Shown piece after piece: positions 17,440 to 38,821 of a stretch of 64,000 nucleotides of DNA (its first letter is position 1; each line of letters opens with the position of its first letter). The DNA is from Xenophilus sp. L33 (GTDB lineage Bacteria; Pseudomonadota; Gammaproteobacteria; Burkholderiales; Burkholderiaceae_C), in contig NZ_LMUW01000032.1 of assembly GCF_009765735.1 (NCBI RefSeq), forward strand, positions 1 through 64,000, given 5' to 3'. Under the pieces are notes generated by a model. It did not search any database and was not told the origin of the DNA. It saw only the letters and a list, made by a program, of their open reading frames with translations. A program made the position numbers and the translations under genes.

Positions 17440-17482
17440 GCTCACTCCTGTGGATGGATGAAAAATCGAAAAGCGGAACGGG

Positions 17483-18784: not shown

Positions 18785-18797
18785 CGAAGGCAAGGGT

Positions 18798-24820: not shown

Positions 24821-25702
24821 ATGCCCACCATCCAGACCCGCGACGGCATCCGCCTTCACTACGAGGAGGCCGGCAGCGGCACTCCGATCATCTTCGTGCA
24901 CGAGTTCGGCGGCGACTGGCGCAGCTGGGAACCGCAGATGCGCCACTTCACCCGCCGCTACCGCTGCATCACGTTCAGCGCGCGCGGCTTCCTGCCGTCC
25001 GACGTGCCGGACGACGTCGAGCGCTATTCGCAGCAGATCGCGACCGACGACATCGCCGACGTGCTCGACGGTCTCGGCATCGAGTCGGCGCACGTCGTGG
25101 GCCTGTCGATGGGCGGCTTCGCGACCCTGCACTTCGGCCTGCGCTATCCGCAACGCGCGCGCTCGCTGGTGGTGGCCGGTGCGGGCTACGGCGCGGAGAA
25201 GGCGCTGGAGGCCTACTTTCGCGACGTGTCGCTCGAGGTGGCGCGCAAGTTCGAGGCGCTCGGTTCGGTCGAGTTCGCCAAGATCTATTCGACCGCGGCC
25301 TCGCGCATCGTGTTCCAGCTGAAGGACCCGCGCGGCTGGCAGGAATTCGCCACGCAGCTGTCCGAGCACTCCGCGGTCGGCTCGGCCCGCACGATGCAGG
25401 GCGTGCAGGCGCGCCGGCCGTCGATCTACGACCTCGAGGCCGAATTGAAGGCGATGACCGTGCCCACGCTGATCGTCGTCGGCGACGAGGACGATCACTG
25501 CCTGCAGCCCGGCATCTTCCTCAAGAAGACGATTCCCGCCAGCGGCCTGCTGGTGCTGCCGAAGACCGGCCACACGCTCAACATCGACGAACCGGCGCTG
25601 TTCAACCAGTTCGTCTCCGACTTCCTGGCCACCGTCGAGCAAGGCAGGTACCTGCCGCGCGATCCGCGCTCGATGCCCGCCGAGATCATGAAGACGTCAT
25701 GA
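24821..25702 (+). CDS. Alpha/beta hydrolase
   Basis: The 293-residue protein has the classic layout: IIFVHEFGGDWRSW with the oxyanion loop HEFGG (family usually HGxGG), TFSARGFLPS, nucleophile elbow GLSMGG with Ser96, acid in VVGDEDD and His in TGHTLN. No signal peptide is seen, so it is cytosolic. The family covers esterases, C-C hydrolases and carbamate or aminoacrylate hydrolases. It begins 15 bases after the aminotransferase and its stop overlaps the amidohydrolase start (ATGA), which puts it in the same pathway. Confidence 0.92.
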   Translation: MPTIQTRDGIRLHYEEAGSGTPIIFVHEFGGDWRSWEPQMRHFTRRYRCITFSARGFLPSDVPDDVERYSQQIATDDIADVLDGLGIESAHVVGLSMGGFATLHFGLRYPQRARSLVVAGAGYGAEKALEAYFRDVSLEVARKFEALGSVEFAKIYSTAASRIVFQLKDPRGWQEFATQLSEHSAVGSARTMQGVQARRPSIYDLEAELKAMTVPTLIVVGDEDDHCLQPGIFLKKTIPASGLLVLPKTGHTLNIDEPALFNQFVSDFLATVEQGRYLPRDPRSMPAEIMKTS

Positions 25703-26979
25703 GCGCGACGACTGCATCCACCGGCGCTGCCGCAGCCATCGACGAAGCGCGGCTCTGGGAGCGTCACATGGCGATGGCGCGCTTCGGCGCCACCGCCGCC
25801 GGCGGCGTGAACCGCCAGGCGCTCTCGGCGGAAGACTTCGTGGCCCAGGCCGAACTGGTCCGCTGGGGCGAAGCGCTGGGCCTCGCTGCCTCGCGCGACC
25901 GCATCGGCAACCTGTTCCTTCGCCTGCCCGGCACCGACCCGGACGCAGCGCCCGTGCTCTCCGGTTCGCACCTCGACAGCCAGCCCACGGGCGGCCGCTT
26001 CGACGGCGTCTACGGCGTGCTGGCCGCCTTCGAGGCGGTGCAGGCGATCATCGAGCGCGGCGTCGCGCACCGGCATCCGATCGAGGTCGTGGCCTGGATG
26101 AACGAGGAAGGCTCGCGCTTCGCGCCCGGCATGATGGGCTCGGCCGTCTTCGCCGGCGCCCGCACCGAGGAAGAGACCGTGTCGGTGCGCGATGCCGCCG
26201 GCGTCAGCGTCGCCGATGCGCTCGCGCAATGCGACATCGCCATGGCGCAGGTGCCGCTGCGCGCGCTCGGCGGCCCGGTGCATGCCTACGTCGAGGCGCA
26301 CATCGAGCAGGGTCCGGTGCTGGAGCGCGAAGGCATCCCGGTCGGCGTGGTGAGCGGCATCCAGGGCAAGCACACCTTCCGGGTCGAGGTGCTCGGCGAG
26401 CCTTCGCACGCCGGCACTTCCGAGCGGCGCGAGCGCAAGGACGCGCTGATCGCCGCCACCGCGATGGTGCAGGCGCTGGCGGCGGAATTCCACGACGCCG
26501 AGGACATCACCAAGTTCACCGTGGGCCGCTTCGAGGTCTTTCCCAATGCGCCATCTGTGGTGGCCGGCAAGGTCGTGTTCTCGATCGACCTGCGGCATCC
26601 GCGGTCGGACCGGCTGCGCGCGATGAGCGCCCGCATCGAGCCCATCTGCCGCGCGGTCCAGGGACCTTGCGAGGTCGTCGTCACGCGGCTCTCGGCCGCC
26701 GACTCGCTGGAATTCCCGACCGCCTTGCGCGACCGCATCCGCAGCATCGCCGGTCGACTCGACATCCCGAGCCTCGACCTGCCTTCGGCGGCGGGCCACG
26801 ATGCGCGCTACCTGCATCCGATCGCGCCCTCCGCCATGATCTTCGTGCCCTGCCACCTGGGGATCACGCACAACGAAGCCGAATCGGCCGAGCCCGGCGA
26901 CCTCGCCGCCGGCGCGCGCGTGCTGGCCGACCTGCTGGTCGAACTCGCCAACGAACCCGCCCGCAAGGAAAGCGAATGA
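25699..26979 (+). CDS. M20-family amidohydrolase (allantoate / N-carbamoyl amino acid hydrolase type)
   Basis: The 426-residue protein has the metal and substrate motifs of the allantoate amidohydrolase / beta-ureidopropionase / N-carbamoyl-L-amino acid hydrolase group: SGSHLDSQPTGGRFDGVYG, MNEEGSRF, EAHIEQGPVLE, PSHAGT, AAGHDA and ITHNEAE. These are dinuclear Zn or Mn enzymes that release ammonia and CO2 from ureido compounds. The gene overlaps its neighbours on both sides by ATGA. In a cluster with a flavin monooxygenase, flavin reductase and alpha/beta hydrolase it suggests breakdown of a ureido intermediate, as in pyrimidine or hydantoin catabolism. Confidence 0.92.
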   Translation: MSATTASTGAAAAIDEARLWERHMAMARFGATAAGGVNRQALSAEDFVAQAELVRWGEALGLAASRDRIGNLFLRLPGTDPDAAPVLSGSHLDSQPTGGRFDGVYGVLAAFEAVQAIIERGVAHRHPIEVVAWMNEEGSRFAPGMMGSAVFAGARTEEETVSVRDAAGVSVADALAQCDIAMAQVPLRALGGPVHAYVEAHIEQGPVLEREGIPVGVVSGIQGKHTFRVEVLGEPSHAGTSERRERKDALIAATAMVQALAAEFHDAEDITKFTVGRFEVFPNAPSVVAGKVVFSIDLRHPRSDRLRAMSARIEPICRAVQGPCEVVVTRLSAADSLEFPTALRDRIRSIAGRLDIPSLDLPSAAGHDARYLHPIAPSAMIFVPCHLGITHNEAESAEPGDLAAGARVLADLLVELANEPARKESE

Positions 26980-27749
26980 AGCCGTCGCACATCGCCGACA
27001 GCGAATGGAAGGCCCGCGTCGACCTCGCCGCCTGCTACCGGCTGGTCGCGCAGCTCGGGCTGGACGACATGATCTACAACCACATCTCGCTGCGCGTGCC
27101 CGGGCACCATGACCAGTTCCTGATCAATCCCTACGGCCTGATGTTCGAGGAGATCACGGCCTCCAGCTTGGTCAAGATCGACCTGCAGGGACGTAAGGCC
27201 GAGCCCTCGCCGCACGAGGTCAACGTGGCGGCCTTCGTGATCCACGGCGCCATCCACCAGGGGCGCGAGGACGCCGCCTGCGTGCTGCACACCCACTCCG
27301 ACGCGACCATCGCGGTCTCGGCCCAGCTTTCGGGCCTGCTGCCGCTGTCGCAGTTCGCGATGCGCTTCTACCAGCGCCAGGCCTTCCACGACTACGAGGG
27401 CGTCGCCATCGACCTCGACGAGCAGGCGCGCCTCGTGCGCGACTTCGGCGCCCATCCGGTGATGCTGATGCGCAACCACGGCATCCTCACCCTCGGCCGC
27501 ACGGTCGCGGAGGCCTTCATGCTGCTCTACGGCTTCGAGCGCGCGGCGCGCATCCAGCTCCGGATGCAGGCCGCCGCCGCCAGCGCCGGCCCGATCGTGG
27601 CGCCGCCGCACGCGGTCTGCGAGCACGCGGCGCGGCAGTTCTGGGAGCAGCACGGCGACATCCTGGTGGCCGGCGAACGCGAGTGGCCGGGCCTGCTGCG
27701 CAAGCTCGAACGCGACGCTTCTCCTTCGGTGCCGCGCTTCGATTCGTGA
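26976..27749 (+). CDS. Class II aldolase/adducin family protein
   Basis: The 257-residue protein has the family zinc ligands in VLHTHSD and MRNHG and the early YNHISLRVPG stretch, with GLMFEEITASSLVKID. Members are fuculose/ribulose-phosphate aldolases, decarboxylases or scaffold-like adducin heads. Its start overlaps the M20 gene by ATGA, and it is the last gene of the rightward arm; the convergent SDR of the next operon ends only 3 bases after it. It may cleave or decarboxylate the carbon skeleton left after nitrogen removal. Confidence 0.9.
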   Translation: MKPSHIADSEWKARVDLAACYRLVAQLGLDDMIYNHISLRVPGHHDQFLINPYGLMFEEITASSLVKIDLQGRKAEPSPHEVNVAAFVIHGAIHQGREDAACVLHTHSDATIAVSAQLSGLLPLSQFAMRFYQRQAFHDYEGVAIDLDEQARLVRDFGAHPVMLMRNHGILTLGRTVAEAFMLLYGFERAARIQLRMQAAAASAGPIVAPPHAVCEHAARQFWEQHGDILVAGEREWPGLLRKLERDASPSVPRFDS

Positions 27750-27752
27750 GCC

Positions 27753-28553
27753 TCAATGCGCCATCGTGCAGGTCACGCCGCCGTCGATCGGTATCACGGT
27801 GCCGGTGATGTACTTGGACTCGTCCGACGCCAGGAACACCGCCGCGTTGGCCACGTCCCAGACATCGCCCATCCGCTTCATCGGCACCGCGGCGGAGCGC
27901 GACTTGCGCATCTTCTCGACGTCGCCGTCGTAGAACGACAGCACGGTCACGTGGATGCGCGGTGAATCGATCAGGCCGGGCAGGATGCTGTTGCAACGGA
28001 TGTTGTCGGCGCCGTGCTGCACCGCGACCATCCGGGTCAGCTGGTTCAGCGCCGCCTTCGACGCGTGGTAGGAGATGAACGGGTGCCCGGTCCAGGTGAT
28101 GCTGGCGATCGACGACACGTGGATGATCGAGCCGCCGCCCTGCGCCTGCATGATCGGTATCACCGCCTTGCAGCTCAGGTAGGCGCCCTTGATGTTGACG
28201 TCCATCACGCGGTCCCAGTCGGCCTCCTCGGTCTCGACGACGCCGCCGCGCTGGTTGATGCCGGCGTTGTTGTGCAGGATGTCGATGCGCCCGAAGCGTC
28301 CCATGGTCAGCGCGACCGCCTCGTCGATCTGCGCCTTGTTCGCCACGTCGGCCACGACGTGGACCGCGTCGCCGCCTTCCGCGCGGACCTGCTCGGCGGC
28401 ACGGCGGGCCGCCGCCTCGTTCACGTCGGCGCAGACCACGTTGGCGCCCTGCCGCGCGAAGGCGACCGCGGTCGCATTGCCGTTGCCCCAGCCCTCCGGG
28501 TCGACGCAGCCGGCGCCGAGCACCAGCGCCGTCTTTCCTTCCAGTCTCTTCAT
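27753..28553 (-). CDS. Short-chain dehydrogenase/reductase
   Basis: The 266-residue protein is a classical SDR with Ser148, Tyr162 and Lys166 (SYHASKAALN) and NNAG near residue 97. The glycine-rich loop is unusual: LGAGCVDPEGWGNGNATAV inserts several residues between the glycines, as in a small subgroup of catabolic SDRs. TVIPIDGGVT closes the domain. It is the last gene of the LacI-controlled leftward operon, 37 bases after a Bug gene. It probably oxidises a hydroxy intermediate with NAD. Confidence 0.92.
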   Translation of the reverse strand: MKRLEGKTALVLGAGCVDPEGWGNGNATAVAFARQGANVVCADVNEAAARRAAEQVRAEGGDAVHVVADVANKAQIDEAVALTMGRFGRIDILHNNAGINQRGGVVETEEADWDRVMDVNIKGAYLSCKAVIPIMQAQGGGSIIHVSSIASITWTGHPFISYHASKAALNQLTRMVAVQHGADNIRCNSILPGLIDSPRIHVTVLSFYDGDVEKMRKSRSAAVPMKRMGDVWDVANAAVFLASDESKYITGTVIPIDGGVTCTMAH

Positions 28554-28590
28554 GTCGTTTCCGTTCTGCGGCCGGCGGCCGCGTTGAGGT

Positions 28591-29625
28591 TCATCTCGAT
28601 GGCGACGCGGCCGCCGCGCCAGCCACGCAGTCCAAGCCGCGCATGCTGCATGGCAGGCGTTCGACCACCTTGCGCCACTTGTCCGATTCGGCGGCGATCG
28701 TCTTCTTCAGCTGCTCGGGGCTGGACGCATAGGCGTGATAGCCCATGAATTCCAGCTGCTTCTGGTAGGCCGGGTCCTCCTGCACCTTGGCGATGGCGGC
28801 TTCGAGCTTCCGCGCGACGTCGGGCGGCAGCCGGGCCGGCCCGATCAATGCGAACCAGCCGGTGGCCTCGTAGCCCGGCACCGTCTCCGCGACCGCCGGC
28901 ACGCCGGGCATCAGGCTGGAGCGCGTCGGCGCGGTGGTGGCCAGCGCCCTGAGCTTGCCGGCATCGATCAGCGACTTGGACCCGCCGATGACGTCGAACA
29001 TGAAGTCGGTGCGACCCGACGCGACGTCGATCGCGGCCGGACTGCCGCCGCGGTAGGGGATGCTGTTGAACTCGACCTTGGCGAGGTCGCCGAGCAGCGC
29101 GCCCGCGAGATGGTTGCCGGTGCCGACGCCCGAGGAGCCGTACGACACCGTGCCGGGCGATTGCCGGGCCTTGGCCAGCAGCGACGGCAGGTCCTTGAAG
29201 GGCGAGTCGGGCCCCGTGACCATCACGTACTCGAAGGAAGCGTAGGTGCCGAGCCAGGTGAAATCGGCCACCGGGTCGTAGGGCAGCTTCGACATGTGCG
29301 GCGCGACCGTGTGCAGGCTGTTGGCGGTGGCGCCCAGGGTGTAGCCGTCGGGCTCCGAGCCCGCGAGGCGGTTGAGCGCGATCTCGCCCGAGGCGCCGGC
29401 GACGTTCTCGGCCACCACCGACTGGCCGAGCGCATCGCCGAGGCGGGCGGCGAAGACGCGCGCTGCCTTGTCGGTGGCGCCGCCGGCGGCCAGCGGGATG
29501 AGAAGCCGGATCGGCCGCGAAGGCCACGCCTCGGCCGATGCGGCCGAAGCCGCCGCGCAGTGGCCGATCAGCAGCAGGCCGAGGGCCCACGCACCGCGCC
29601 GCCAGGTGTGGCGTGCCGTCGTCAT
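28591..29625 (-). CDS. Bug-family periplasmic receptor 4
   Basis: The 344-residue product has a long signal peptide (WRRGAWALGLLLIGHCAAASAASA) and the Bug landmarks PIRLLIPLAAGGATD, VVAENVAGASGEIA, PDGYTLGATANS, IPYRGGSPAAIDV and MPGVPAVAETVPGYE. The common PFPPGG loop is LAAGG here. It ends with about 20 extra residues rich in Ala and Cys that other receptors in the window lack. The start overlaps the GMC oxidoreductase stop (ATGA). It is one of three receptors in one operon. Confidence 0.9.
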   Translation of the reverse strand: MTTARHTWRRGAWALGLLLIGHCAAASAASAEAWPSRPIRLLIPLAAGGATDKAARVFAARLGDALGQSVVAENVAGASGEIALNRLAGSEPDGYTLGATANSLHTVAPHMSKLPYDPVADFTWLGTYASFEYVMVTGPDSPFKDLPSLLAKARQSPGTVSYGSSGVGTGNHLAGALLGDLAKVEFNSIPYRGGSPAAIDVASGRTDFMFDVIGGSKSLIDAGKLRALATTAPTRSSLMPGVPAVAETVPGYEATGWFALIGPARLPPDVARKLEAAIAKVQEDPAYQKQLEFMGYHAYASSPEQLKKTIAAESDKWRKVVERLPCSMRGLDCVAGAAAASPSR

Positions 29626-31277
29626 GCCGCTACCGCCTGCCGCGTTGCGAGGCCGGCCTTGCGCACCTCGCTGCCACGCCCCAGCAGCAGGTCCGCCGCC
29701 TTCTCCGCGATCATCACGGTCGCCGCGCAGGTGTTGGCCGAGGTGATCGTCGGCATCACCGAGGCGTCGATGACCCGCAGGCCGTCCACGCCGTGCACCC
29801 GCAGCGCCGGGTCGACCACCGCCAGCCGGTCGGAGGCCGGCCCCATCTTGCAGGTGCCGACCACGTGGTAGCCGGTGACGGCGTAGCGCCGCACGAAGTC
29901 GAGGAACTCGTCGTCGCTCTGCACCGCCGGTCCGGGCAGCAGCTCGGCCTGGATGAGCTTTCGCATCGGCTCGGTGGCGAAGATGCGCCGCACGCAGCGC
30001 AGCGCATCGACCACCACCCGTTGATCGGTCGGGTGCGACAGGTAGTTGGGCTGGATCGTCGGCGCCGCCTGCCAGTCGGTGCCGTGGATGCGCACGTGGC
30101 CCTGGCTTTCCGGCCGCAGCTGCCAGGCGCCGCAGGTGAGGCCCGGCTCGTCGTCGACCTCGCCGAGGCGTCCGAGCGAATAGCTGGCCGAGATGAACGA
30201 CAGCGCGAAGTCCGGCGACGGCAGCTCGGCCCGCGTCTTCCAGAAGCCGTAGATGAGGATCGGGCTGATCGCGAGGATGCTCGGCCGCCCGAGCGCCCAG
30301 GCGGCGACCTCGCGCGCCAGGCGCAGCCCGCGCACCCGCTTGTTGATGCTGTCGGCGCCGGGGCTGACGCGGGCCACGAAGCGCGGGCAGAAGTGGTCGC
30401 GCAGGTTCTCGCCGACGCCGTCGAGGGCACGCAGCACCTCGATGCCGTGCTGCTGCAGCAGTGCCGCGGGGCCGATGCCCGACAGCTGCAGCAACTTGGG
30501 GCTCTGGATCGCGCCCGCGCAGACCAGCACCTCGCGCCGCGCCACGAGCCGTTCGGCGGGCGCGGCCGGACCGCGGTGGAAGACGACGCCGGTCGCGCGG
30601 CCGTTCTCGATCACCAGCCGGCTCACCGTCGCGCCGGTGATGACGTGGGTGCGGAAGCGCTGCTGCGCCGGATGCAGGAAGGCCTGCGCCGTGCTCCAGC
30701 GCCGGCCCTTGTGGATCACGCTCTGGGTGTAGGCGACGCCGGCCTGGCTGGCGCCGTTGTAGTCCTTCGTGCGCGGAATGCCCGCGGCCTCGGCGCCGTC
30801 GAGGAAGCTCTCGCAGAGCGCGTCGCGCCAGGTCGTCTGCTGCACGCGGACCGGGCCTTCGCGGCCGTGGTAGGCGTCGTCGGCCGGGCCGACGAAGCCT
30901 TCGCTGCGGCGGAAGTACGGCAGCACGTCGCGGTAGCCCCAGCCCGGGTTGCCCAGCCGTTCCCAGGTGTCGAAGTCGAGCGGCTGGCCGCGGCTGTAGA
31001 CCGCGCCGTTGACCGCGCTCGAGCCGCCGAGCGTGCGGCCCTGGACCAGCGCGGTGCGGCGGCCGGCGGTGCCTTCGGAGGCCTCGCATTCGAGCTGCCA
31101 GCTGTAGCGCGGATCGCGCAGCAGCCGCGTGAAGCCCGCGGGGATGCGGGTCCAGGCGCTGTCGTCCGGCGGACCGGCCTCGAGCACGCAGACGCTGTGC
31201 CCGGCCTCGCCCAGCCGATAGGCCAGCACGCTGGCGGCGGTGCCGCCGCCGACGATGACGTAGTCGAAGGAGTCCAA
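29622..31277 (-). CDS. GMC-family FAD-dependent oxidoreductase
   Basis: The 551-residue protein opens with the FAD-binding motif DYVIVGGGTAASVLAYRL and shows the GMC signatures GRTLGGSSAVNGAVYSRG and GAIQSPKLLQLSGIGP. The catalytic His region is YHVVGTCKMG, and the end is SANTCAATVMIAEKAADLL. GMC enzymes oxidise alcohols such as choline, alkanols or polyethylene glycol. The likely start is TTG at 31277, which begins exactly at the family N-terminus and 11 bases after the preceding Bug gene stops. No signal peptide is present. It probably oxidises an alcohol group of the operon's substrate. Confidence 0.92.
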   Translation of the reverse strand: MDSFDYVIVGGGTAASVLAYRLGEAGHSVCVLEAGPPDDSAWTRIPAGFTRLLRDPRYSWQLECEASEGTAGRRTALVQGRTLGGSSAVNGAVYSRGQPLDFDTWERLGNPGWGYRDVLPYFRRSEGFVGPADDAYHGREGPVRVQQTTWRDALCESFLDGAEAAGIPRTKDYNGASQAGVAYTQSVIHKGRRWSTAQAFLHPAQQRFRTHVITGATVSRLVIENGRATGVVFHRGPAAPAERLVARREVLVCAGAIQSPKLLQLSGIGPAALLQQHGIEVLRALDGVGENLRDHFCPRFVARVSPGADSINKRVRGLRLAREVAAWALGRPSILAISPILIYGFWKTRAELPSPDFALSFISASYSLGRLGEVDDEPGLTCGAWQLRPESQGHVRIHGTDWQAAPTIQPNYLSHPTDQRVVVDALRCVRRIFATEPMRKLIQAELLPGPAVQSDDEFLDFVRRYAVTGYHVVGTCKMGPASDRLAVVDPALRVHGVDGLRVIDASVMPTITSANTCAATVMIAEKAADLLLGRGSEVRKAGLATRQAVAA

Positions 31278-31288
31278 GCGTCGGTCCC

Positions 31289-32293
31289 TCAGTCGATGGT
31301 CAGCGACAGCTTGGACACCAGCCCGCGCCACTTCTGCTGCTCGGCGGCCATGATGCCGCTCAGCTCAGTGCCGGAAGTCACGCGCGGCACCAGGTTGTTG
31401 GTCTTCATGTACTCGGCGATCTGCGGGTCCTTCGATGCGGCGCGGATCGCGGCGTCGAGCCTGGCGACGATCTCAGGCGGCGTCTTCTTAGGCGCCACGA
31501 TGCCCATGAAGGCCGACACGCTGAGCGCCGGCATGCCCAGCTCGGCGAAGGTCGGCACGTCGGGCAGCTTGTCCATGCGCTTGTCGCCGGAGACGGCCAG
31601 CACCTTCATCTTGCCGGTGCTGATGTACTGCACCGAGGTCGAGATGTCGTTGAACATCACCTGAACCTGGCCGCCGATCAGGTCGGTGATGGCGGCCGAG
31701 GCGCCCTTGTACGGCACGTGGATCACCTCGGTGCCGGTGACCGCCTTGAAGTTCTCCATGCCCAGGTGCGGCAGGCCGCCGGACGCAGTGCTGGCGTAGT
31801 TGAGCTGGTTCGGATGCGACTTGGCGTAGGCGATGAACTCCTTCACGTTGTTCGCTGGCACGGTGCTGCTGATCGCCAGGCCGAGCGGGATCTCCGCCAC
31901 CGAGGTGACCGGCACGAAGTCGCGCGTGAGGTCGTAGGGCGGCTGCTTGTAGAGGTAGGCGTTGTACGAGAGCAGCGACAGGTCCATGAAGAAGATGGTG
32001 TAGCCGTCCGGCGGCGACGCGGCCACGACCTGCGTCGCGATCAGCGTGTTGCCGCCCGGCTTGTTCTCGACCACCACGCCCTCGCCGAGCTTGTCGCCGA
32101 TGGCGCGGGCGAAGGCGCGCGCCATGACGTCGGTCACGCCGCCCGGCAGGTAGGGCACGATCATGCGGATCGGGTGCGAGGGATAGGTGTCGGCCAGCGC
32201 GGGTGTAGCGGCGGCTGCAACCAGCGAGGCGCCGATCGCCTGCAGGCACAGGCGGCGCGAGAGTCGTCGGAAGGAACGGGCGGCAAGGGTCAC
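31289..32293 (-). CDS. Bug-family periplasmic receptor 5
   Basis: The 334-residue protein has a twin-arginine-like signal (RRLSRRLCLQAIGASLVAAAA, cleavage near ALA-D). Mature landmarks are PIRMIVPYLPGGVTDVMAR, VVVENKPGGNTLIA, PDGYTIFFMD, IHVPYKGASAAITDL and LPDVPTFAELG. It starts at GTG 32293 with AGGAG 9 bases upstream. It is the second Bug gene of the LacI-controlled operon, between DUF35 and GMC genes. The pocket loop differs from receptors 4 and 6, so the three need not bind the same ligand. Confidence 0.92.
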   Translation of the reverse strand: MTLAARSFRRLSRRLCLQAIGASLVAAAATPALADTYPSHPIRMIVPYLPGGVTDVMARAFARAIGDKLGEGVVVENKPGGNTLIATQVVAASPPDGYTIFFMDLSLLSYNAYLYKQPPYDLTRDFVPVTSVAEIPLGLAISSTVPANNVKEFIAYAKSHPNQLNYASTASGGLPHLGMENFKAVTGTEVIHVPYKGASAAITDLIGGQVQVMFNDISTSVQYISTGKMKVLAVSGDKRMDKLPDVPTFAELGMPALSVSAFMGIVAPKKTPPEIVARLDAAIRAASKDPQIAEYMKTNNLVPRVTSGTELSGIMAAEQQKWRGLVSKLSLTID

Positions 32294-32357
32294 GGAAGTC
32301 GTCTCCTGGTCTGGGTCTCTTGGAAGGAAGGAAGCGGCGCGGGAGGGCCGCCGGGGT

Positions 32358-32759
32358 TCAGTGCCGGGGCCGGAAGACCGGCGCCATGCGGCCCTGGTCG
32401 GTCGGCCGGAAGGCGACCTCCAGCGGCAGGCCGATCGAGATGGCCTGCGGCTCGCAATCGATCACGTTGCTCATCAGCAGCACGCCCTCCTCGAGCCGCA
32501 CGTAGGCCAGCACCCGCGGCAGCGTCGGATGCCGGATGTACGAGAAGGTGTGGACCTCGCCGCGTCCCGAGGCCGGGCGCCAGTCGATCGCATCGGCATG
32601 GCAGAACGGACAGAAGGCGCGCGGATGCCAGTGCGTGCGGTCGCAGGCGCTGCAGTACGGCAGCAGCAGCACGCCCTTGGCCGCGGCCTGCCAGAAGGCC
32701 TGGGTCTCGGGGAAGGCCTGGACGAAAGGGTCCTGCATCGTCGGATCGGTCGTGCTCAT
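32358..32759 (-). CDS. DUF35 (Zn-ribbon plus OB-fold) acyl-CoA-associated protein
   Basis: The 133-residue protein has a rubredoxin-like zinc ribbon with Cys36, Cys39, Cys50 and Cys53, then an OB fold (GRGEVHTFSYIRHPTL). DUF35 proteins bind acyl-CoA and form complexes with SCP2-type thiolases, as in steroid side-chain retro-aldolases and acetoacetyl-CoA systems. Its start overlaps the thiolase stop (ATGA), so the pair is made together. It likely stabilises or feeds that enzyme. Confidence 0.93.
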   Translation of the reverse strand: MSTTDPTMQDPFVQAFPETQAFWQAAAKGVLLLPYCSACDRTHWHPRAFCPFCHADAIDWRPASGRGEVHTFSYIRHPTLPRVLAYVRLEEGVLLMSNVIDCEPQAISIGLPLEVAFRPTDQGRMAPVFRPRH

Positions 32760-33928
32760 TGCAGACGCTCCAGCACGACCGTGGCGTGCGTGTGGCCGAT
32801 GCCGAAGACCAGCCCGGGGCCGCTGGCGATCGCGATGTCGCAGTTCGGCACCTGCACCGCAGGATGCGCTTCGCCGCGCAGCTGCCGCACCGCCTCGATC
32901 ACCTTGGTCATGCCGCCGCGGTTCTGCGGATGGTTGTTGCAGAGGCCGCCGCCGTCGGTGTTCCAGGGCAGCTTGCCGACGCCGGAGATGAGGCCGCCGT
33001 CGGCCACGAAGCGGCCGCCCTCGCCCGGCGCGCAGAAGCCGAGGTCTTCCAGCTGCATGACCACCATGATCGTGAAGTTGTCGTAGATCGACGCGTATTT
33101 CACGTCGGCCGGCTTCAGCGCCGCCTGCTCGAAGGCCTGGCGGCCCGACTCGGCGGCACCGGTGCGCAGGATGTCGAGGCCACCCGCCTCGCCGGTCCGC
33201 ACCGATTCACCGAAGCCGCGCACCCCGACCAGCGGCCGGCCGAGCGAGCGAGCGATCTCGGGCCGGGTCACGACCAGCGCGCCGCCGCCGTCGCTGATGA
33301 CGCAGCAGTCCAGGCGGTGCAGCGGATCCGCGACCATCGGCGAATTCAGCACGTCGTCGACGCTCACCACCTTGCGCAGCATCGCGTTCGGGTTGTGCTG
33401 GGCATGGGTGGAGGCAGCCACCTTGACCCAGGCGAGCTGCTCGCTGGTGGTGCCCCACTCGTGCATGTGTCGCTGGGCGAGGCAGCCGTAGATGCCGGCC
33501 ACGGTCCAGCCGAAGGGGCTCTCCCAGGCCGACCAGGGCCGGTCGGGCGGCAGCACGCGCAGCTCGGTGCCGGTCGCCTGGCCGCTGCTGCGCGGTTTGC
33601 CGGCCAGCGTGATCAGCGCCACCGAGCAGCGGCCCTGCGCGATCGCCTCTGCCGCACGACTGACGTGCCGGATGTAGGAGCAGCCGCCGGACTCGGTGCC
33701 GTCGACGTGGCGCACCTTGAGGTTCATGTAGTCGACCATCAGCGCCGGGATGCCGCCGGGCGTATCGGCGGCGCTGAAGTAGCCGTCGACGTCGCCGAAG
33801 CCGAGGCCGGCGTCGGCCAGTGCGCCGCGCGCGCACTCGTAGTGCAGTTGCGCCACCGACTTGTCGGGCGCGTAGCGTGTGGGATGCTCGAAGGCACCGG
33901 CGATGCAGGCGGTGGGCGATGCGCTCAT
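32756..33928 (-). CDS. SCP2-type thiolase (lipid-transfer-protein thiolase)
   Basis: The 390-residue protein is of the SCP-x/Ltp type: VRHVDGTESGGCSYIRHVSRAA, then GKPRSSGQATGTE, DCCVISDGGGALVV, YDNFTIMVVMQLEDLGF and the terminal HATVVLERL. The C-terminal HPQNRGG takes the place of the GHPxGATG loop of ordinary thiolases, and no thiolase CxG motif is seen near the end. Some members of this group are retro-aldolases and not thiolases. The adjacent DUF35 gene supports a two-subunit acyl-CoA lyase. It follows a Bug gene by 11 bases. Confidence 0.88.
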   Translation of the reverse strand: MSASPTACIAGAFEHPTRYAPDKSVAQLHYECARGALADAGLGFGDVDGYFSAADTPGGIPALMVDYMNLKVRHVDGTESGGCSYIRHVSRAAEAIAQGRCSVALITLAGKPRSSGQATGTELRVLPPDRPWSAWESPFGWTVAGIYGCLAQRHMHEWGTTSEQLAWVKVAASTHAQHNPNAMLRKVVSVDDVLNSPMVADPLHRLDCCVISDGGGALVVTRPEIARSLGRPLVGVRGFGESVRTGEAGGLDILRTGAAESGRQAFEQAALKPADVKYASIYDNFTIMVVMQLEDLGFCAPGEGGRFVADGGLISGVGKLPWNTDGGGLCNNHPQNRGGMTKVIEAVRQLRGEAHPAVQVPNCDIAIASGPGLVFGIGHTHATVVLERLQ

Positions 33929-33939
33929 GGTGGTGCGTC

Positions 33940-34923
33940 CTATTCGGGCTTGGCGCCGCTGTCGCGCACCACCTGCAGCCAGTGCGCGCGCTCGGCCGCG
34001 ATCGTCTTCTGCCATTCGGCATGGCCGGTGAAGCCGGCCTCCATGCCGATGGATTTCGTGAAGGCGGCGAAGGCGGCGCTGCGCGCCACGTCGCCGATGG
34101 CGTCCGACATCTTGTCGACGATGGCTTCCGGGGTGCCGGCCGGCGCGAAGAAGAAGGTGTTGGCCACGTAGTCGTAGCCCGGCACGCCCGCCTCGGCGAC
34201 GGTCGGCACGTCCGGATACGAGGACGACCGCTCGCTGCCGCTGGTCGCCAGGATCCGGAGCTTGCCGGCCTCGACCAGCGGCCGCGCCGTGGTGATCGCG
34301 GCGAAGGAGAAGTCCACTTCACCGGTCGAGGTCGCCACTGCCGCCGGCACCTGGCCCTTGTACGGCACGTGCAGGAACTGCGCGCCGGTGAGCGTCGAGA
34401 GCATCGACGGCGCGAGATGCTGCGAGCTTCCGGTGCCGCCCGACGCGTAGCCGAGCTTGCCGGGATGGGCCTTGGCAAAGTCCAGGAGCTCCTTGACGCT
34501 GTGGAAAGGCGAGGTCGACGGCACGACCAGCAGCAGTTGCACGGCACCCACCTTGGCCACCGGCACGAAGGACTTGAGCGGGTCGTAGCCGATCTTGGCG
34601 ACCAGCGCCTCGTTGGTGAAATAGCCGGTGGAGGTGATCATCATCGTGTAGCCGTCCGGCGCCGCGCGAGCGGCGACGTCGGTGCCGATGAGCCCGTTGG
34701 CGCCGACCCGATGGTCCATTACCAGCGCGACCTTCCAGCGTTCGCCGATGCGCTGGGCGATGAAGCGCGAAGACGCGTCCGTGGCCGTGCCGGGCGCGTA
34801 AGGCTGTATCAGCGTGATCGCGTGATCGGGCCAGTTCGCCGCCTGCCCTTGTGCCCGCGCCGCGCCCATCGCGCCGCTCGCGCAGGCGACCAGGGCCGCC
34901 TCGAGGATCTGCCGTCGGTTCAT
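33940..34923 (-). CDS. Bug-family periplasmic receptor 6
   Basis: The 327-residue protein has a signal peptide (RRQILEAALVACASGAMGAARA) and the landmarks ITLIQPYAPGTATDASSR, ALVMDHRVGANGLIG, PDGYTMMITSTG, LHVPYKGQVPAAVA and YPDVPTVAEAGVPGYD. The pocket loop APGTATD differs from the common PPGG form. It lies 13 bases after the acyl-CoA ligase gene and 11 bases before the thiolase, so it is in the middle of the metabolic genes. It is the third receptor of the operon. Confidence 0.92.
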   Translation of the reverse strand: MNRRQILEAALVACASGAMGAARAQGQAANWPDHAITLIQPYAPGTATDASSRFIAQRIGERWKVALVMDHRVGANGLIGTDVAARAAPDGYTMMITSTGYFTNEALVAKIGYDPLKSFVPVAKVGAVQLLLVVPSTSPFHSVKELLDFAKAHPGKLGYASGGTGSSQHLAPSMLSTLTGAQFLHVPYKGQVPAAVATSTGEVDFSFAAITTARPLVEAGKLRILATSGSERSSSYPDVPTVAEAGVPGYDYVANTFFFAPAGTPEAIVDKMSDAIGDVARSAAFAAFTKSIGMEAGFTGHAEWQKTIAAERAHWLQVVRDSGAKPE

Positions 34924-34936
34924 GTTGATGTCTCCT

Positions 34937-36493
34937 TCAGACGCGCCGCTCGTTGCCGACCCAGAAGCGCTCGCGGATGTCCCGCTTCAGCACCTTGCCG
35001 ACCGCGCTGCGCGGCAGCTGCGGCCACACCTCGATGCTCTTGGGCGTCTTCATGCTGCCCAGGCGTTCGCGGCACAGCGCCAGCGCGGCGGCTTCGTCGA
35101 GCCGGTGGCCGGGCTTGAGCTCCACCACCGCCTTGACCGCCTCGCCCCACACCGGATCGGGCACGCCGATGACCGCGCAGTCGCTCACCGCGGGCAAGGT
35201 CCAGAGCACCTGCTCGATCTCGCTCGGCGAGATGTTGAAGCCGCCCGAGACGATCAGGTCCTTGAGCCGGTCGACGATGTAGTAGTAGCCGTGCGCGTCG
35301 CGCAGGCCGACGTCGCCGGTGTGCAGCCAGCCGTCGCGCAGGGTCTCGGCGGTCTTCGCGGGGTCGGCGTAGTAGCCCTTCATCACGAGGTCGCCCTGGA
35401 TCACCAGCTCGCCGCGTTCGCCCGCGTCGAGCAGGCGTCCCTGCGGATCCATCACCGCCACGCGCACGAAGGGCGAGGCACGTCCGCAACTCGCGAGCTG
35501 GGGATGCAGCGCCTCGTCGGCCAGGATCTCGGCGTGGTCCTGCGCGGTCAGGCAGGTGGCGACGAAGGGCGCCTCGGCCTGGCCGTAGCACTGCACCATC
35601 ACCGGGCCGAACACCTCCAGCGCCTCGCGCAGCTTCTCGACCGACATCGGCGCCGCCGAATAGATGAAGTAGCGCAGCGACCGGTAGTCGTGCTCGCGCA
35701 AGGACGGATGGGCCAGCAGCTTGTAGATGACGGTCGGCGGCAGGAAGAGCTGCGTGACGCGATGGGCCTCGATGGCCTGCAGGATCGCGGCGGGATCCGC
35801 CGAAGGCAGCACGACGGTGCTGCCGCCATAGGCCATGGTCATGAAGCAGACCGCGCCCGCCGCATGGGTCATCGGCGCGACCGCCAGGTGCACCGGCCGC
35901 CCGCTCACCGGCATCGAGGCGAACCAGTTGGCCATCATCGCGCCGTAGACCCGGTGGGTCACCATCACGCCCTTGGGCAGGCCGGTGGTGCCGCCGGTGC
36001 CGCGGATCGCGACCACGTCGTCGACCCGCGCGGCGCTGCGGTACGGCGTCGCCGGAAAGCCGGCGGCCCACGTTTCCAGGTCGGGCACGTCGCCGAACGC
36101 ACGGTCGATGCAGACCACGCCGAGCAGGTCGGGGATGGCCTCGCGCAACGCCGGCAACTGTTCGGAGAAGCTGCTGTGGATGAAGAGGAAGCGGCAACCG
36201 CCGCGCGCCAGGATGTTGATGTTCTCTTCGGCGGAATTGCGCGCATTGACCGGCAGCCAGATGCCGCTGGAGCGCACGGTGCCGAGCACGGCCACCATCG
36301 TCAGCAGGTGGTTGGCGGTCAAGAGGCCGACCTGGCAGCTTGCGTCGATGCCCGCCGCCGCGATGCCGTTGGCGATGCGGTGGGTCAGCGCCGCGACTTC
36401 GGCGTAGCTGAGGCTGCGGCCGCCCGGCTCGACCAGGCAGGGTGCGTCGGCCCCGAGGCTGGCGCCGCGGTCGAAGAAGTCGATCAGTTGCAT
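34937..36493 (-). CDS. AMP-forming acyl-CoA ligase, first gene of the LacI-controlled operon
   Basis: The 518-residue enzyme has the adenylate-forming P-loop RGTGGTTGLPKGV (164-176), the CYGQAEAP region, the GWLHTGDVG hinge-linked motif, DRLKDLIVSGGFN and the C-terminal lysine in SAVGKVLKRDIRE. It activates a carboxylic acid to its CoA thioester in the cytosol using ATP. ATG at 36493 fits the family start; codons above it run into the operator. It is the first gene after the divergent LacI regulator. The substrate is probably an organic acid brought in or made by the operon. Confidence 0.92.
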   Translation of the reverse strand: MQLIDFFDRGASLGADAPCLVEPGGRSLSYAEVAALTHRIANGIAAAGIDASCQVGLLTANHLLTMVAVLGTVRSSGIWLPVNARNSAEENINILARGGCRFLFIHSSFSEQLPALREAIPDLLGVVCIDRAFGDVPDLETWAAGFPATPYRSAARVDDVVAIRGTGGTTGLPKGVMVTHRVYGAMMANWFASMPVSGRPVHLAVAPMTHAAGAVCFMTMAYGGSTVVLPSADPAAILQAIEAHRVTQLFLPPTVIYKLLAHPSLREHDYRSLRYFIYSAAPMSVEKLREALEVFGPVMVQCYGQAEAPFVATCLTAQDHAEILADEALHPQLASCGRASPFVRVAVMDPQGRLLDAGERGELVIQGDLVMKGYYADPAKTAETLRDGWLHTGDVGLRDAHGYYYIVDRLKDLIVSGGFNISPSEIEQVLWTLPAVSDCAVIGVPDPVWGEAVKAVVELKPGHRLDEAAALALCRERLGSMKTPKSIEVWPQLPRSAVGKVLKRDIRERFWVGNERRV

Positions 36494-36504
36494 GGCGCTG
36501 TTTG

Positions 36505-36518
36505 TGGAAACGTTTTCA
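36505..36518. promoter_or_regulatory. LacI-family operator (main site)
   Basis: TGGAAACGTTTTCA is a near-perfect palindrome with the central CG and AAA/TTT arms of LacI/GalR operators. It lies between the acyl-CoA ligase start (36493) and its promoter -10 box (36533-36528 on the minus strand), where a bound repressor would block transcription. Binding by the LacI protein encoded next door is inferred. Confidence 0.7.
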
Positions 36519-36527
36519 TGTCGATCG

Positions 36528-36556
36528 ACTCTACAATTCGAGGCCACGGCGAACAA
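36528..36556 (-). promoter_or_regulatory. Sigma-70-like promoter of the LacI-controlled operon
   Basis: On the minus strand TTGTTC (36556-36551), exactly 17 bases, then TAGAGT (36533-36528). It points at the acyl-CoA ligase gene. The main LacI-type operator begins 10 bases past the -10 box. On the plus strand TACAAT at 36532-36537 may serve the lacI-type gene, but its -35 is poor. Confidence 0.5.
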
Positions 36557-36560
36557 GCCT

Positions 36561-36575
36561 GTGGAACGTTTTCAT
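36561..36575. promoter_or_regulatory. Second, imperfect LacI-type operator
   Basis: The sequence GTGGAACGTTTTCAT repeats the first operator with one A deleted from the left arm, so its palindrome is weaker. The centres are 56 bases apart. It ends 11 bases before the ATG of the LacI-type regulator and would give autoregulation or cooperative looping. Confidence 0.5.
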
Positions 36576-36586
36576 ACTGGTAAACG

Positions 36587-37600
36587 ATGACTCAACGTAT
36601 CTCCGTCCGCGACGTGGCCGACGCTGCGGGCGTCGCCATCGGCAGCGTCTCGCGGGTGCTCAACCAGAGCGGCTACGCCTCCGAGAGCCTGCGCAAGCGC
36701 GTGATGGACGCGGTCCAGAAGCTCGGCTACGAGCCCGACTTCACCGCCCGCCATCTGCGCACCGGCCACAGCAGGACCATCGGCTACCTGCTCGCGAACA
36801 TCGCCAATCCCTCGCTGGCGGCGCACCTGAGCGAGGTCGAGCGGCTCACGCAGGCGGCGGGCTACTCGCTGCTGGTGGGAAGCTCGGAGCGGCAGGCGCG
36901 CGACCGCGAGCTGGTCGCCTTCTTCGAGAACCGTCGGCTCGAAGGCATCATCGCGTCGCCCAGCTTCGAATATCCCGATCCCGCGGACTGCCCGTTCGCC
37001 AACTCGAAGCTGCCGGTGGTGATCTGCGACCGCGCCATGGGCCACGACTTCGACAGCGTGCTGATCGAGCATGCGAAGGGGCTGCGCCGGGCCATGGACT
37101 ACCTGCTGTCGCTCGGCCATCGGCGCATCGCCCTCTTCGTGTCGAGCGCGAACCTGCGGCCCGGCCGCGAGAAGCTGATCGGCTACCAGGCGGCGCTGGC
37201 GTCGGCCGGCATCGCCTACGACGAGCGGCTGATCTACATGCCCAATTCGTGGATCGAGTCTTCCGGCGAAAGCATGGCGGAGATGCTCAAGCTCGACGAG
37301 CCGCCGACGGCCATCATCGCGCTCGGCACGCGCATGCTGTCGGGCGCCATCCATGTGGCGCGCGAAGCGGGGCTGGACATTCCGCGCGACCTCTCGGTGA
37401 TCGGAATCGGCATCATGTCGACGCTCGAACTGATGTATCCGCCCTTGACGGTGCTGCGCTACAACTACGAGGCCAGCGCGCAACTCACGGTGCAGCTGAT
37501 GCTCGACCGGATCGCCGGCGACTCGCCGCCCGGCGTGCGCAAGCTCCAGGTCGAGTGGGACCTGGTCATCGGCCGGTCCTGCGCGGTGGCCGCGCGCTGA
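36587..37600 (+). CDS. LacI-family transcriptional regulator
   Basis: The 337-residue protein has the LacI helix-turn-helix and hinge at residues 1-60 (ISVRDVADAAGVAIGSVSRVLN, LGYEPD) and a sugar-binding-like effector domain (TIGYLLANIANPSLAAHLSEV, VVICDRAMGHDFDSV, LGHRRIALFV, DLSVIGIG). It diverges from the acyl-CoA ligase gene. Two LacI-type operators in the 93-base spacer imply that it represses the leftward operon and itself. The effector is likely an operon substrate or intermediate, although the fold is shared with sugar binders. Confidence 0.93.
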   Translation: MTQRISVRDVADAAGVAIGSVSRVLNQSGYASESLRKRVMDAVQKLGYEPDFTARHLRTGHSRTIGYLLANIANPSLAAHLSEVERLTQAAGYSLLVGSSERQARDRELVAFFENRRLEGIIASPSFEYPDPADCPFANSKLPVVICDRAMGHDFDSVLIEHAKGLRRAMDYLLSLGHRRIALFVSSANLRPGREKLIGYQAALASAGIAYDERLIYMPNSWIESSGESMAEMLKLDEPPTAIIALGTRMLSGAIHVAREAGLDIPRDLSVIGIGIMSTLELMYPPLTVLRYNYEASAQLTVQLMLDRIAGDSPPGVRKLQVEWDLVIGRSCAVAAR

Positions 37601-37629
37601 ATCCGGGGCCGCGCGACCGATCCACGACA

Positions 37630-37836
37630 ATGCGCCTCATGGATTCCATGAGCGATGAAGAACTCGCATCGGCCGCCTTCGTGCTTCGCAAGCGCGCCGA
37701 ACACGGCGACACCGCGGCGCTGAGGCAGGCCGAGAAGCTCGAGGCCGAATTGCGCGAGCGGCTCGGCCCGACACCCTCCCGGCAAGGGCCGCTGGTCGAA
37801 TTGCCGAAGCCGCGGCCCTGGTGGCGCTTCTGGTAG
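37630..37836 (+). CDS. Small PWW-tail protein (68 aa), copy 1
   Basis: The short protein starts near MDSMSDEEL, has a charged helical middle (LRKRAEHGDTAALRQAEKLEAEL) and ends PWWRFW. A second gene at 55957-56163 encodes a protein of the same length with the same plan: LSDDE start, LRARAMRGDVAARSAAE middle, PWWQLW end. The conservation of two otherwise unlinked copies supports both as real genes. No signal peptide or known domain is visible. It begins 29 bases after the LacI-type gene and ends 10 bases before the convergent Bug gene. Function unknown. Confidence 0.7.
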   Translation: MRLMDSMSDEELASAAFVLRKRAEHGDTAALRQAEKLEAELRERLGPTPSRQGPLVELPKPRPWWRFW

Positions 37837-37846
37837 CGGCCCGGCG

Positions 37847-38821
37847 TCAATCGAGCCTGGCGCCGGTCTTCGCGATGATCGGCTTCCACTTCGCGGTCTC
37901 CGCCACCAGGTAGGCCTGGTACTGCTCCGGCGTCGAGCCGATCGGTTCCTGCCCGATGTCGCGGATGCGGGCAAGCATCGCCGGCTCCTGCAGGATCGCC
38001 GCGATGTCGTCGCGGACCTGCCGGACGGTCTGCGGCGGCGTGCCGGCGCGTGTCACCAGGCCGAAGGCGCCCGAGAAGTCGAAGCCCGGCACGGCGGTGT
38101 TCACCAGCGTCGCATCCGGCGCCATCTCCGGATGCTGAGCGCCCATGGTGCCGATCAGCTTGAGCTTGCCGCTCTTGACCTGGTCCAGCGCCGACGCGGT
38201 CAGCGGATCGATCAGGAGCGGCACGTGGCCGCCGAGCAGGTCGGTCATGGCCTGCGCGCTGCCCTTGTACGGCACGTTGCGCATGCGCACGCCGGCCATC
38301 GAATTCAGCAACTCCATCGCCAGGTAGGTCTGCGTGGTCGCGTAGGCGTAGGCCACGCCGTCCGGCTCGGCGCGCGCGGCCGCCATCAGCTCCATCGGCG
38401 TCGACGGCGCGAACGACGGATGGGCGTAGAGCGCCATGTGGAAGCGCGTCAGCAGCATCACGCCCGTCAGGTCGTGCGCGGTGTCGTAGGGCATGTGCGA
38501 GGTCAGCAGCGGGTTGATGACGTGCGAGCCGGTGACCAGGCCGAGCGTCTGCCCGTCCGGCGCGGCGTGCGCGACGGCCTCGGTGCCGAGCATGGTGTTG
38601 GCGCCGGGGCGGTTTTCCACCAGCACCGTCATGTTCCAGCGCGTGCCGAGGTTCTCCGCGATCTGCCGCGCCAGGGCGTCGGTCGCGCCGCCCGGCGGGA
38701 ACGGAACGATCAGGCGCACGGGGCGCGACGGATTGAAGGTGGCGGGCGCTTGCGCCCGCGCGATCGGTGCCAGCGCCAGGCCGGCGGAGGCGGCCAGCAG
38801 GCTGCGGCGTGAAAGGGGCAT
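37847..38821 (-). CDS. Bug-family periplasmic receptor 7
   Basis: The 324-residue protein has a signal peptide (RRSLLAASAGLALAPIARAQ) and the landmarks [62 protein letters not shown] and VNTAVPGFDFS. The usual DVPT stretch before the last domain is DATLVNTAVPG, a divergent form. It is a single-gene unit, divergent from an SDR gene 114 bases away, which may share its regulation. The ligand is unknown and no TctA or TctB is present. Confidence 0.92.
   Translation of the reverse strand: MPLSRRSLLAASAGLALAPIARAQAPATFNPSRPVRLIVPFPPGGATDALARQIAENLGTRWNMTVLVENRPGANTMLGTEAVAHAAPDGQTLGLVTGSHVINPLLTSHMPYDTAHDLTGVMLLTRFHMALYAHPSFAPSTPMELMAAARAEPDGVAYAYATTQTYLAMELLNSMAGVRMRNVPYKGSAQAMTDLLGGHVPLLIDPLTASALDQVKSGKLKLIGTMGAQHPEMAPDATLVNTAVPGFDFSGAFGLVTRAGTPPQTVRQVRDDIAAILQEPAMLARIRDIGQEPIGSTPEQYQAYLVAETAKWKPIIAKTGARLD

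Follow-up and report, generated by a model that had tools for sequence, protein, structure and literature searches.

Some betaproteobacteria encode more than 100 Bug receptors, few of which have known ligands. AdpC, Bug27 and Bug69, our comparators for the receptors described below, are described as orphan Bugs. Excerpts of published work give 181 Bug genes for Bordetella bronchiseptica, with at most four membrane components in the genus (PMC5994714), and 130 for Variovorax paradoxus TBEA6 (PMC8102459). TphC is a Bug protein whose gene sits within the tph operon that degrades its ligand, terephthalate (PMC8556258, in excerpt). Steroid side-chain aldolases of the Ltp2–ChsH2 and Sal–Shy types combine a thiolase fold and a zinc-ribbon DUF35 partner with the Tyr of a YDxF/Y motif and have no thiolase nucleophile, according to the available text of PMC12329534. 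For ibuprofen, ipfF and ipfDE pair an acyl-CoA ligase with a thiolase-like/OB-fold (DUF35-type) couple that yields a short acyl-CoA (part of PMC11347016). The locus studied here resembles these systems. It is a run of eight genes with three Bug receptors in the window, a stretch of 64,000 nucleotides from Xenophilus sp. L33 (contig NZ_LMUW01000032.1, positions 1 to 64,000).

We consider it probable that the run is a catabolic operon repressed by LacI and equipped with orphan Bugs of its own, and that it represents one version of a gene set shuffled across Burkholderiales genera. Its single parts are of known kinds. New in the literature and genomes searched are the recurring set defined by LacI and its operators, with Bug orthogroups tied to enzymes, and an aldolase-like variant of the active site. 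No published operon of this kind was found by title or abstract in the open-licence PMC literature. The tph operons have one tphC each in the excerpt cited (PMC8556258), whereas the three receptors here belong to different orthogroups. Unlike the Ipf system, which has a ring dioxygenase, the run contains GMC (glucose-methanol-choline) and SDR (short-chain dehydrogenase/reductase) enzymes and Bugs, and the two are likened by function and not by sequence similarity.

Gene run and LacI switch

The run extends from 36493 to 27753 on the reverse strand in the order acyl-CoA ligase, Bug3, thiolase-like protein (THL), DUF35, Bug2, GMC oxidoreductase, Bug1 and SDR. The intergenic gaps are 13, 11, -4, 64, 11, -4 and 37 bp in the same order, and there are no inner stops. 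Recomputation from the sequence confirmed the order, strand and coordinates of the first-pass annotation, including 64 bp as the greatest gap. Domains were assigned with Pfam and NCBIfam profiles. The thiolase-like protein matched NF006010, a thiolase C-terminal domain family, with 682 bits (cut-off 462), and the GMC protein gave 173 bits for GMC_oxred_N and 139.5 bits for GMC_oxred_C. The nearest solved relatives of the ligase are FadD8-type and feruloyl/fatty acyl-CoA synthetases, and those of the GMC protein are choline dehydrogenase, a chloramphenicol-inactivating oxidoreductase, fatty acid photodecarboxylase and alcohol oxidases. The zinc ligands of DUF35 are arranged as C-x2-C-x10-C-x2-C. 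The three Bugs scored 198–240 bits against PF03401 (cut-off 27), and their N-termini are hydrophobic by eye. The motif P-[FY]-x-x-G-G-x-x-D is fitted by Bug2; in Bug1 the aromatic residue is replaced by Leu, and Bug3 and its four relatives have G-T for G-G.

The 93-bp gap between the ligase and the divergent LacI gene contains two palindromic, CG-centred boxes of LacI operator type that flank a sigma70-like core promoter (Table 1). At up to three mismatches the box B pattern was matched once, with 0.11 matches expected, and the exact TGRAAACGTTTYCA core is unique to box B in the genome, with one-mismatch copies at two other places. Both boxes (a 13-mer and a 14-mer, 0–3 mismatches), with centres approximately 55–61 bp apart, are present in the LacI gap of seven loci, namely those of the window, V. 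paradoxus VAI-C (G014), G122, G416, G259, Bordetella sp. BOR01 (first locus) and Ramlibacter terrae; L108, the other Bordetella locus, lay outside the box B scan. The LacI gap of Advenella keeps box A alone, and a weak box A lies ahead of its thiolase-like gene. Of 10 aligned regions, 9 have the promoter pattern TTnnnn-17-TAnnnT beginning 3–5 nt past box A; the exception is the site before the aldehyde dehydrogenase (ALDH) gene of VAI-C. When the 50 bases after the box were shuffled, the mean was 0.03 of 10 and the maximum 2 in 2000 rounds; this figure is descriptive, because the criterion was chosen after the alignment had been seen and the regions are related. A pattern for the conserved 26-bp block, written from ten sites and searched in eight genomes at up to 3 mismatches, gave 12 sites, 10 of which were its own sources, and the reversed pattern gave none. 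Both additional sites head LacI-ligase-Bug sets. One is the second Bordetella locus (0 mismatches; identities of 65% for LacI, 70% for the ligase, 78% for the thiolase-like protein, 55% for DUF35 and 78% for BugX), and the other is a distant VAI-C locus (L109 5391-10612, G014 C1; 3 mismatches; LacI 51%, SDR 38%, Bug 49% and ligase 39%).

At the level of sequence, these boxes and the promoter, which lie ahead of the first gene and are conserved in other genera, argue for the LacI control that had been proposed at first pass. LacI would bind box A just ahead of the -35 element and box B ahead of the first gene, thereby blocking the promoter. An inducer, probably the substrate or an intermediate of the CoA pathway, would release LacI and allow a single transcript for the eight proteins. 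In this scheme the boxes, the promoter and the gene packing are read from the sequence, and LacI binding, induction and the single transcript are proposed from them. Separate transcription of the receptors was the second refuting condition of the first-pass annotation; the box scan detected no second operator box inside the eight-gene run, and its genes are tightly packed. In VAI-C, however, a second operator pair precedes ALDH-Bug2-GMC-Bug1-SDR. A generic promoter scan of 27600–37700 returned no promoter, and it says little because the proposed one was also missed; the number of terminator-like matches in the same interval (3) equals the shuffled mean (2.7).

Table 1 Coordinates of the eight-gene run, its LacI gene and the elements between them.
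Feature	Coordinates	Strand	Remarks
Operator box A, GTGGAACGTTTTCAT, core one base shorter	36561..36575		Putative; within conserved 26-bp block 36561-36586
Operator box B, GTGGAAACGTTTTCAT	36504..36519		Putative; immediately upstream of ligase start; recurs in relatives, 0-3 mismatches
Core promoter TTGTTC-17-TAGAGT	36528..36556	-	Putative; -35 at 36556-36551, -10 at 36533-36528, between boxes
AMP-forming acyl-CoA ligase, 518 aa	34937..36493	-	ATG start; PF00501 + PF13193
Bug3, TctC-family periplasmic receptor	33940..34923	-	ATG start; PF03401; motif variant PYAPGTATD
Thiolase-fold protein, NF006010 subfamily	32756..33928	-	ATG start; active site GGCS / YDNF / NHPQ
DUF35 partner (zf-ChsH2 + OB_ChsH2_C)	32358..32759	-	ATG start; no fused hydratase
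64-bp gap DUF35/Bug2	32294..32357	-	In VAI-C, operator pair and aldehyde dehydrogenase gene at same site
Bug2, TctC-family receptor	31289..32293	-	GTG start; PF03401
GMC flavin alcohol dehydrogenase/oxidase	29622..31277	-	TTG start
Bug1, TctC-family receptor	28591..29625	-	ATG start; PF03401
SDR oxidoreductase (adh_short_C2)	27753..28553	-	ATG start
Divergent LacI-family regulator	36587..37600	+	PF00356 + PF13377

Gene orders in relatives and receptor linkage

The first-pass annotation had allowed that the operon might be a recent assembly not conserved in any relative. A recent one-off assembly was rejected, since V. paradoxus VAI-C conserves the set and other genera carry it in rearranged form. 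The gene orders, with LacI before the slash and with BugX and BugE as two further Bug orthogroups of the relatives, are as follows. VAI-C has LacI / ligase-Bug3-THL-DUF35-ALDH-Bug2-GMC-Bug1-SDR, which is the window order with ALDH added at the 64-bp gap. G416 and G259, from genera of the same family, have LacI / Bug3-ligase-SDR-Bug1-THL-DUF35-BugX, and G122, from the genus of the window, has LacI / ligase-SDR-THL-DUF35-BugX. Bordetella has the two loci LacI / ligase-SDR-Bug1 and LacI / ligase-THL-DUF35-BugX. Advenella has LacI / ALDH-Bug2-GMC-ligase-SDR-Bug1, and THL-DUF35-BugE flanks LacI on its opposite side. Ramlibacter has LacI / Bug3-ligase-second Bug, with Bug3 in two frames (R. terrae, L039 9031-9995), reflecting either a broken gene or a sequencing error. 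An Alcaligenaceae genome (L043) has the ligase, THL, DUF35, BugX, BugE and SDR, and no LacI orthologue is labelled within its 21.5 kb. Three Bugs are found at 5 of the 9 LacI-headed loci (window, VAI-C, Advenella, G416 and G259), and LacI at the eight other loci is 65–82% identical to that of the window.

The distribution of the ligase indicates how scattered the set is. Of 101 genomes of the genus, three (counting the present one) have an orthologue of at least 70% identity; a 399-genome sample of the family adds two genera (73% and 72%) and a 399-genome sample of the order adds one (74%), and the gene set is therefore sporadic. If G014 is V. paradoxus VAI-C, as a ligase search of plasmid records suggests, the genus is Variovorax; 405 of the 406 records in that search were below 60% identity. 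Two observations weigh against a gene set that recurs in shuffled order. Ligase orthologues (66–74%) of G699, Lacisediminimonas and three Achromobacter are not accompanied by orthologues of LacI, the thiolase-like protein or Bug1–Bug3. G416 and G259 are near-duplicates (90–94% identical except for DUF35, 77%), so the independent rearrangements are few. The thiolase-like protein of G122 is 90% identical to the second Bordetella copy versus 77% to that of the window, and the same holds for LacI (75 versus 68%) and the ligase (77 versus 70%); this closer similarity to Bordetella than to a member of its own genus implies horizontal transfer or old paralogy. On the VAI-C plasmid record (L110 2491-9756), behind LacI and on the same strand, genes for three acyl-CoA dehydrogenases, an enoyl-CoA hydratase, a further AMP-binding ligase and a phosphotransferase are present, and these may extend the regulon towards beta-oxidation.

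The genome encodes 97 Bugs (99 matches, two broken genes being counted once each). With gaps of at most 2 kb, three Bugs on the same strand form a cluster at this locus alone, and uniform random placement gave a mean of 0.034 such clusters with a maximum of 2 in 2000 trials. Linkage at 48% identity or more among 34 Bugs placed Bug1, Bug2 and Bug3 in three separate orthogroups. The window Bugs are 58–76% identical to their own orthologues and 50% to the second Ramlibacter Bug. A recent tandem duplication of the three was rejected, as the groups have mean mutual identities of 32–34% outside the pocket columns defined below.

Each orthogroup has a preferred neighbor, in counts that include the two near-duplicate genomes. 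Bug1 adjoins the SDR at all six loci of its orthogroup; Bug3 adjoins the ligase at 5 of 5 loci and at the split Ramlibacter gene, one member (Ramlibacter) being just 49–54% identical; Bug2 precedes the GMC gene at 3 of 3 loci; and BugX follows DUF35 at 4 of 5. Orthologues of Bug2 and of the GMC protein were both found in three of eight genomes and neither in the other five, with GMC at 64% or more versus at most 51% in the rest and Bug2 at E up to 1e-90; in 7 of these genomes the scoring covered just 150 Bug2 candidates, and hence a Bug2 may have been missed. The ligase occurs without Bug3 in G122, at both Bordetella loci and in Advenella, and the SDR without Bug1 in G122. The receptor–enzyme pairs expected at first pass are thus a tendency across loci and not a rule.

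These exceptions are relevant to the alternative that the Bugs are redundant or captured genes that hitch-hike with any catabolic operon, with at most one of them linked to the present enzymes. Bugs do cluster and adjoin enzyme genes elsewhere in this genome. There are eight two-Bug clusters besides this one, where approximately 1.8 clusters with at least two Bugs would be expected, and a gap limit of 3.5 kb yields another three-Bug cluster, on C159. In 20 hand-picked stretches, 8 of 32 Bugs have a gene from the enzyme families sought on their own strand and no more than 300 bp away, so that such adjacency is ordinary. The THL-DUF35 pair, like the ligase and SDR, also occurs without Bug3 or Bug1, and the slot after DUF35 is variable, holding BugX, BugE, Bug2 or, in VAI-C, ALDH. 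However, each Bug belongs to an orthogroup kept in other genera beside the same enzyme, Bug2 shares its pattern of presence with GMC, and the pocket residues are stricter than the remainder of the protein, clearly so for Bug1 and Bug2. We therefore regard redundancy or capture as unlikely. The linkage, co-occurrence and shared operator tie several Bug orthogroups to defined enzymes and offer testable receptor–substrate pairs for orphan Bugs. A further thiolase-like/DUF35/Bug trio, distant from that of the window, is present in the same genome (C142; L120 5890-8354).

Receptor pockets and partner permease

The pocket was defined as 12 ligand-contact columns from TphC, aligned via 8hka by motif; the mapping is approximate at some positions. 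The statements on pockets rest on this alignment, and the AlphaFold model of Bug1 (pLDDT 49.3) was not used. Pocket identity within groups was 1.00 for Bug1, 0.89 for Bug2, 0.77 for Bug3, 0.97 for BugX and 1.00 for BugE, compared with 0.64–0.74 outside the pocket columns over the five groups (64–68% for Bug1, Bug2 and Bug3). Among 2000 random column sets, the number that matched the pocket identity was 0, 24, 145, 3 and 14, respectively. Between Bug1, Bug2 and Bug3, by contrast, pocket identity was 0.18–0.28 versus 0.32–0.34 for the remainder. The different receptor pockets noted in the first-pass annotation therefore appear to be kept within groups and to differ between them. Counting against this are the weak excess of Bug3 (145 of 2000), the several pocket columns that fall in family-wide motifs and the approximate transfer from TphC to 8hka. 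At the positions of TphC T155, S156 and N197, Bug2 has Leu, Pro and Asp, and its ligand may therefore be one without a distal carboxylate.

A profile search found neither TctA nor TctB among the eight genes. The genome has three TctA genes, all on contigs other than that of the operon; TctB was not searched genome-wide. With 97 Bugs to three TctA genes, the partner permease would be shared, or another system would be used. The three Bugs are proposed to bind different ligands of the route in the periplasm and to pass them to a TctA-type permease or a sensor. A purely sensory role of the Bugs would fit the lack of TctA/TctB in the run and the small number of TctA genes, and a sensory role of binding proteins of tripartite tricarboxylate transporters (TTT) is recorded in the excerpt of PMC5994714. 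We consider this role very doubtful, since LacI already accounts for regulation and the annotation surrounding the VAI-C locus, 23 features in all, contains no sensor kinase or chemoreceptor.

Thiolase-like/DUF35 pair and proposed route

In the alignment with thiolase 7yvy, the position of the nucleophilic Cys is Gly in all 8 thiolase-like proteins of the gene set and its relatives, with a Cys one residue later. The motifs GGCS, YDNF and NHPQ are common to the 8 proteins, so that the catalytic-Tyr motif YDxF/Y is present as YDNF and the His of the third motif is kept. In the 18 paralogues with readable motifs, these read GG[SA], YDSF and NHP[ASG], and Gly occupies the Cys position in 18 of 18. 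The alignment contained 28 rows, of which one further paralogue is incomplete and one row is a distant thiolase. A structure model of the thiolase-like protein (pLDDT 74.7, pTM 0.83) gave VIA-align Z values of 41.3 for Ltp2, 41.0 for Sal and 40.3 for 4u4e, which are tied, and 38.5 for thiolase 7yvy. The Foldseek order was 4u4e, Sal, 7yvy and Ltp2, which places the thiolase between Sal and Ltp2 and detracts from an aldolase assignment. The top rows are close together in both comparisons, so there may be a nearer family.

The "SCP2 thiolase" of the first-pass annotation, taken as a thiolytic step, was not borne out; with Gly at the nucleophilic Cys position, the protein resembles the DUF35-paired retro-aldolases, and retro-aldol cleavage is likelier than thiolysis. 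In the available text of PMC12329534, the catalytic residues are Tyr302 and Cys304 in Sal and two Tyr in Ltp2. The position of Ltp2 Tyr344 is His and that of Sal Cys304 is Asn in the present proteins. Put differently, the third motif residue is Asn here, His in Ltp2 and the essential Cys in Sal; at the position of the second Tyr of Ltp2, which is Gln in Sal, the present proteins have His. They thus lack the second catalytic residue of either enzyme, which speaks against a direct equivalence; we accordingly do not class the protein as Ltp2 or Sal but describe it as working like them, and the retro-aldol chemistry is what we infer. In addition, the window DUF35 is small, free-standing and not fused to a hydratase domain, unlike the partners in Ltp2–ChsH2 and Sal–Shy, and Pfam and NCBIfam detected no steroid-specific family among the eight genes. 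We favor a retro-aldol cleavage in which the thiolase-fold/DUF35 pair would use a different acid/base pair. Its active-site set of Tyr, Asn and His matches neither Ltp2 nor Sal, which makes the pair of interest for C–C cleavage chemistry.

The route would begin with oxidation of a primary alcohol by the GMC enzyme, and an ALDH encoded elsewhere would yield the acid. The ligase would then form the CoA thioester, the SDR would act on a hydroxyl or carbonyl group, and the thiolase-fold/DUF35 pair would cleave a 3-hydroxyacyl-CoA by retro-aldol reaction to an aldehyde or ketone and a short acyl-CoA, as the protein families and active-site residues suggest. No hydratase was found among the eight genes by profile search, and the 3-hydroxyl would therefore be already present or made elsewhere. 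The polyethylene glycol operon, with a GMC dehydrogenase, an aldehyde dehydrogenase and an acyl-CoA ligase, has a similar set of functions from alcohol to acid to CoA. The aldehyde step is the weak point of the proposed route, as the window operon has no ALDH. The ALDHs of the VAI-C and Advenella sets are 72% identical to each other; the closest one in the present genome is 64% identical to that of VAI-C and lies on another contig, where it has a MarR gene as its neighbor and VanA-type Rieske genes in the same stretch. Searches of the genome with the operator core and the 26-bp block found no operator site near it.

The same enzymes could be read as a thiolytic beta-oxidation, in which CoA activation of a 3-hydroxy acid (e.g., from a 1,3-diol) is followed by SDR oxidation to the 3-ketoacyl-CoA, which a genuine SCP2-type thiolase then cleaves. 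On paper the GMC enzyme, ligase, SDR and thiolase fold fit this, the third-motif His (NHP) is as in thiolases, and Foldseek ranks thiolase 7yvy third. This reading is nevertheless quite improbable in view of the Gly at the nucleophilic position in 8 of 8 set members and 18 of 18 readable paralogues, the YDNF or YDSF in place of HDxF, and the aldolases and 4u4e as the folds of highest Z. Returning to the retro-aldol route, the earlier sequence of alcohol, acid, CoA thioester and cleavage was upheld for oxidation and activation, with ALDH in the VAI-C and Advenella sets, and not for thiolytic cleavage. The earlier interpretation as a whole was supported in part, by the operator, the pockets and the alcohol-to-CoA route.

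A bolder version of the LacI-repressed operon, to which we assign a rather low likelihood, is a pathway with one receptor per step, in which each enzyme module brings its own Bug for the metabolite entering there. The modules would be ligase/Bug3, GMC/ALDH/Bug2, SDR/Bug1 and aldolase/DUF35 with BugX or BugE, under one LacI regulon. If this were true, the cell would join the pathway at several points and scavenge intermediates from neighbors, and modules would reassort between genera, with receptor, enzyme and operator tending to remain together. It would also give a general reason for approximately 100 orphan Bugs beside few TctAB permeases.

The window of this soil bacterium holds seven Bug genes overall. 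Bug4 (37847–38821, reverse strand), considered as a candidate member of the set, lies beyond LacI and is convergent with the LacI gene; it has no operator box, and no relative of at least 48% identity was present among the 34 Bugs compared. At the other end, genes for an alpha/beta hydrolase, an M20-type amidohydrolase and a class II aldolase (24821–27749, forward strand) are convergent with the operon, and the stop codon of the SDR lies 3 bp from the end (27749) of the aldolase gene. Farther away (16414–18811, reverse strand), a bacterial-luciferase-type monooxygenase gene adjoins that of an NMT1/THI5-like binding protein.

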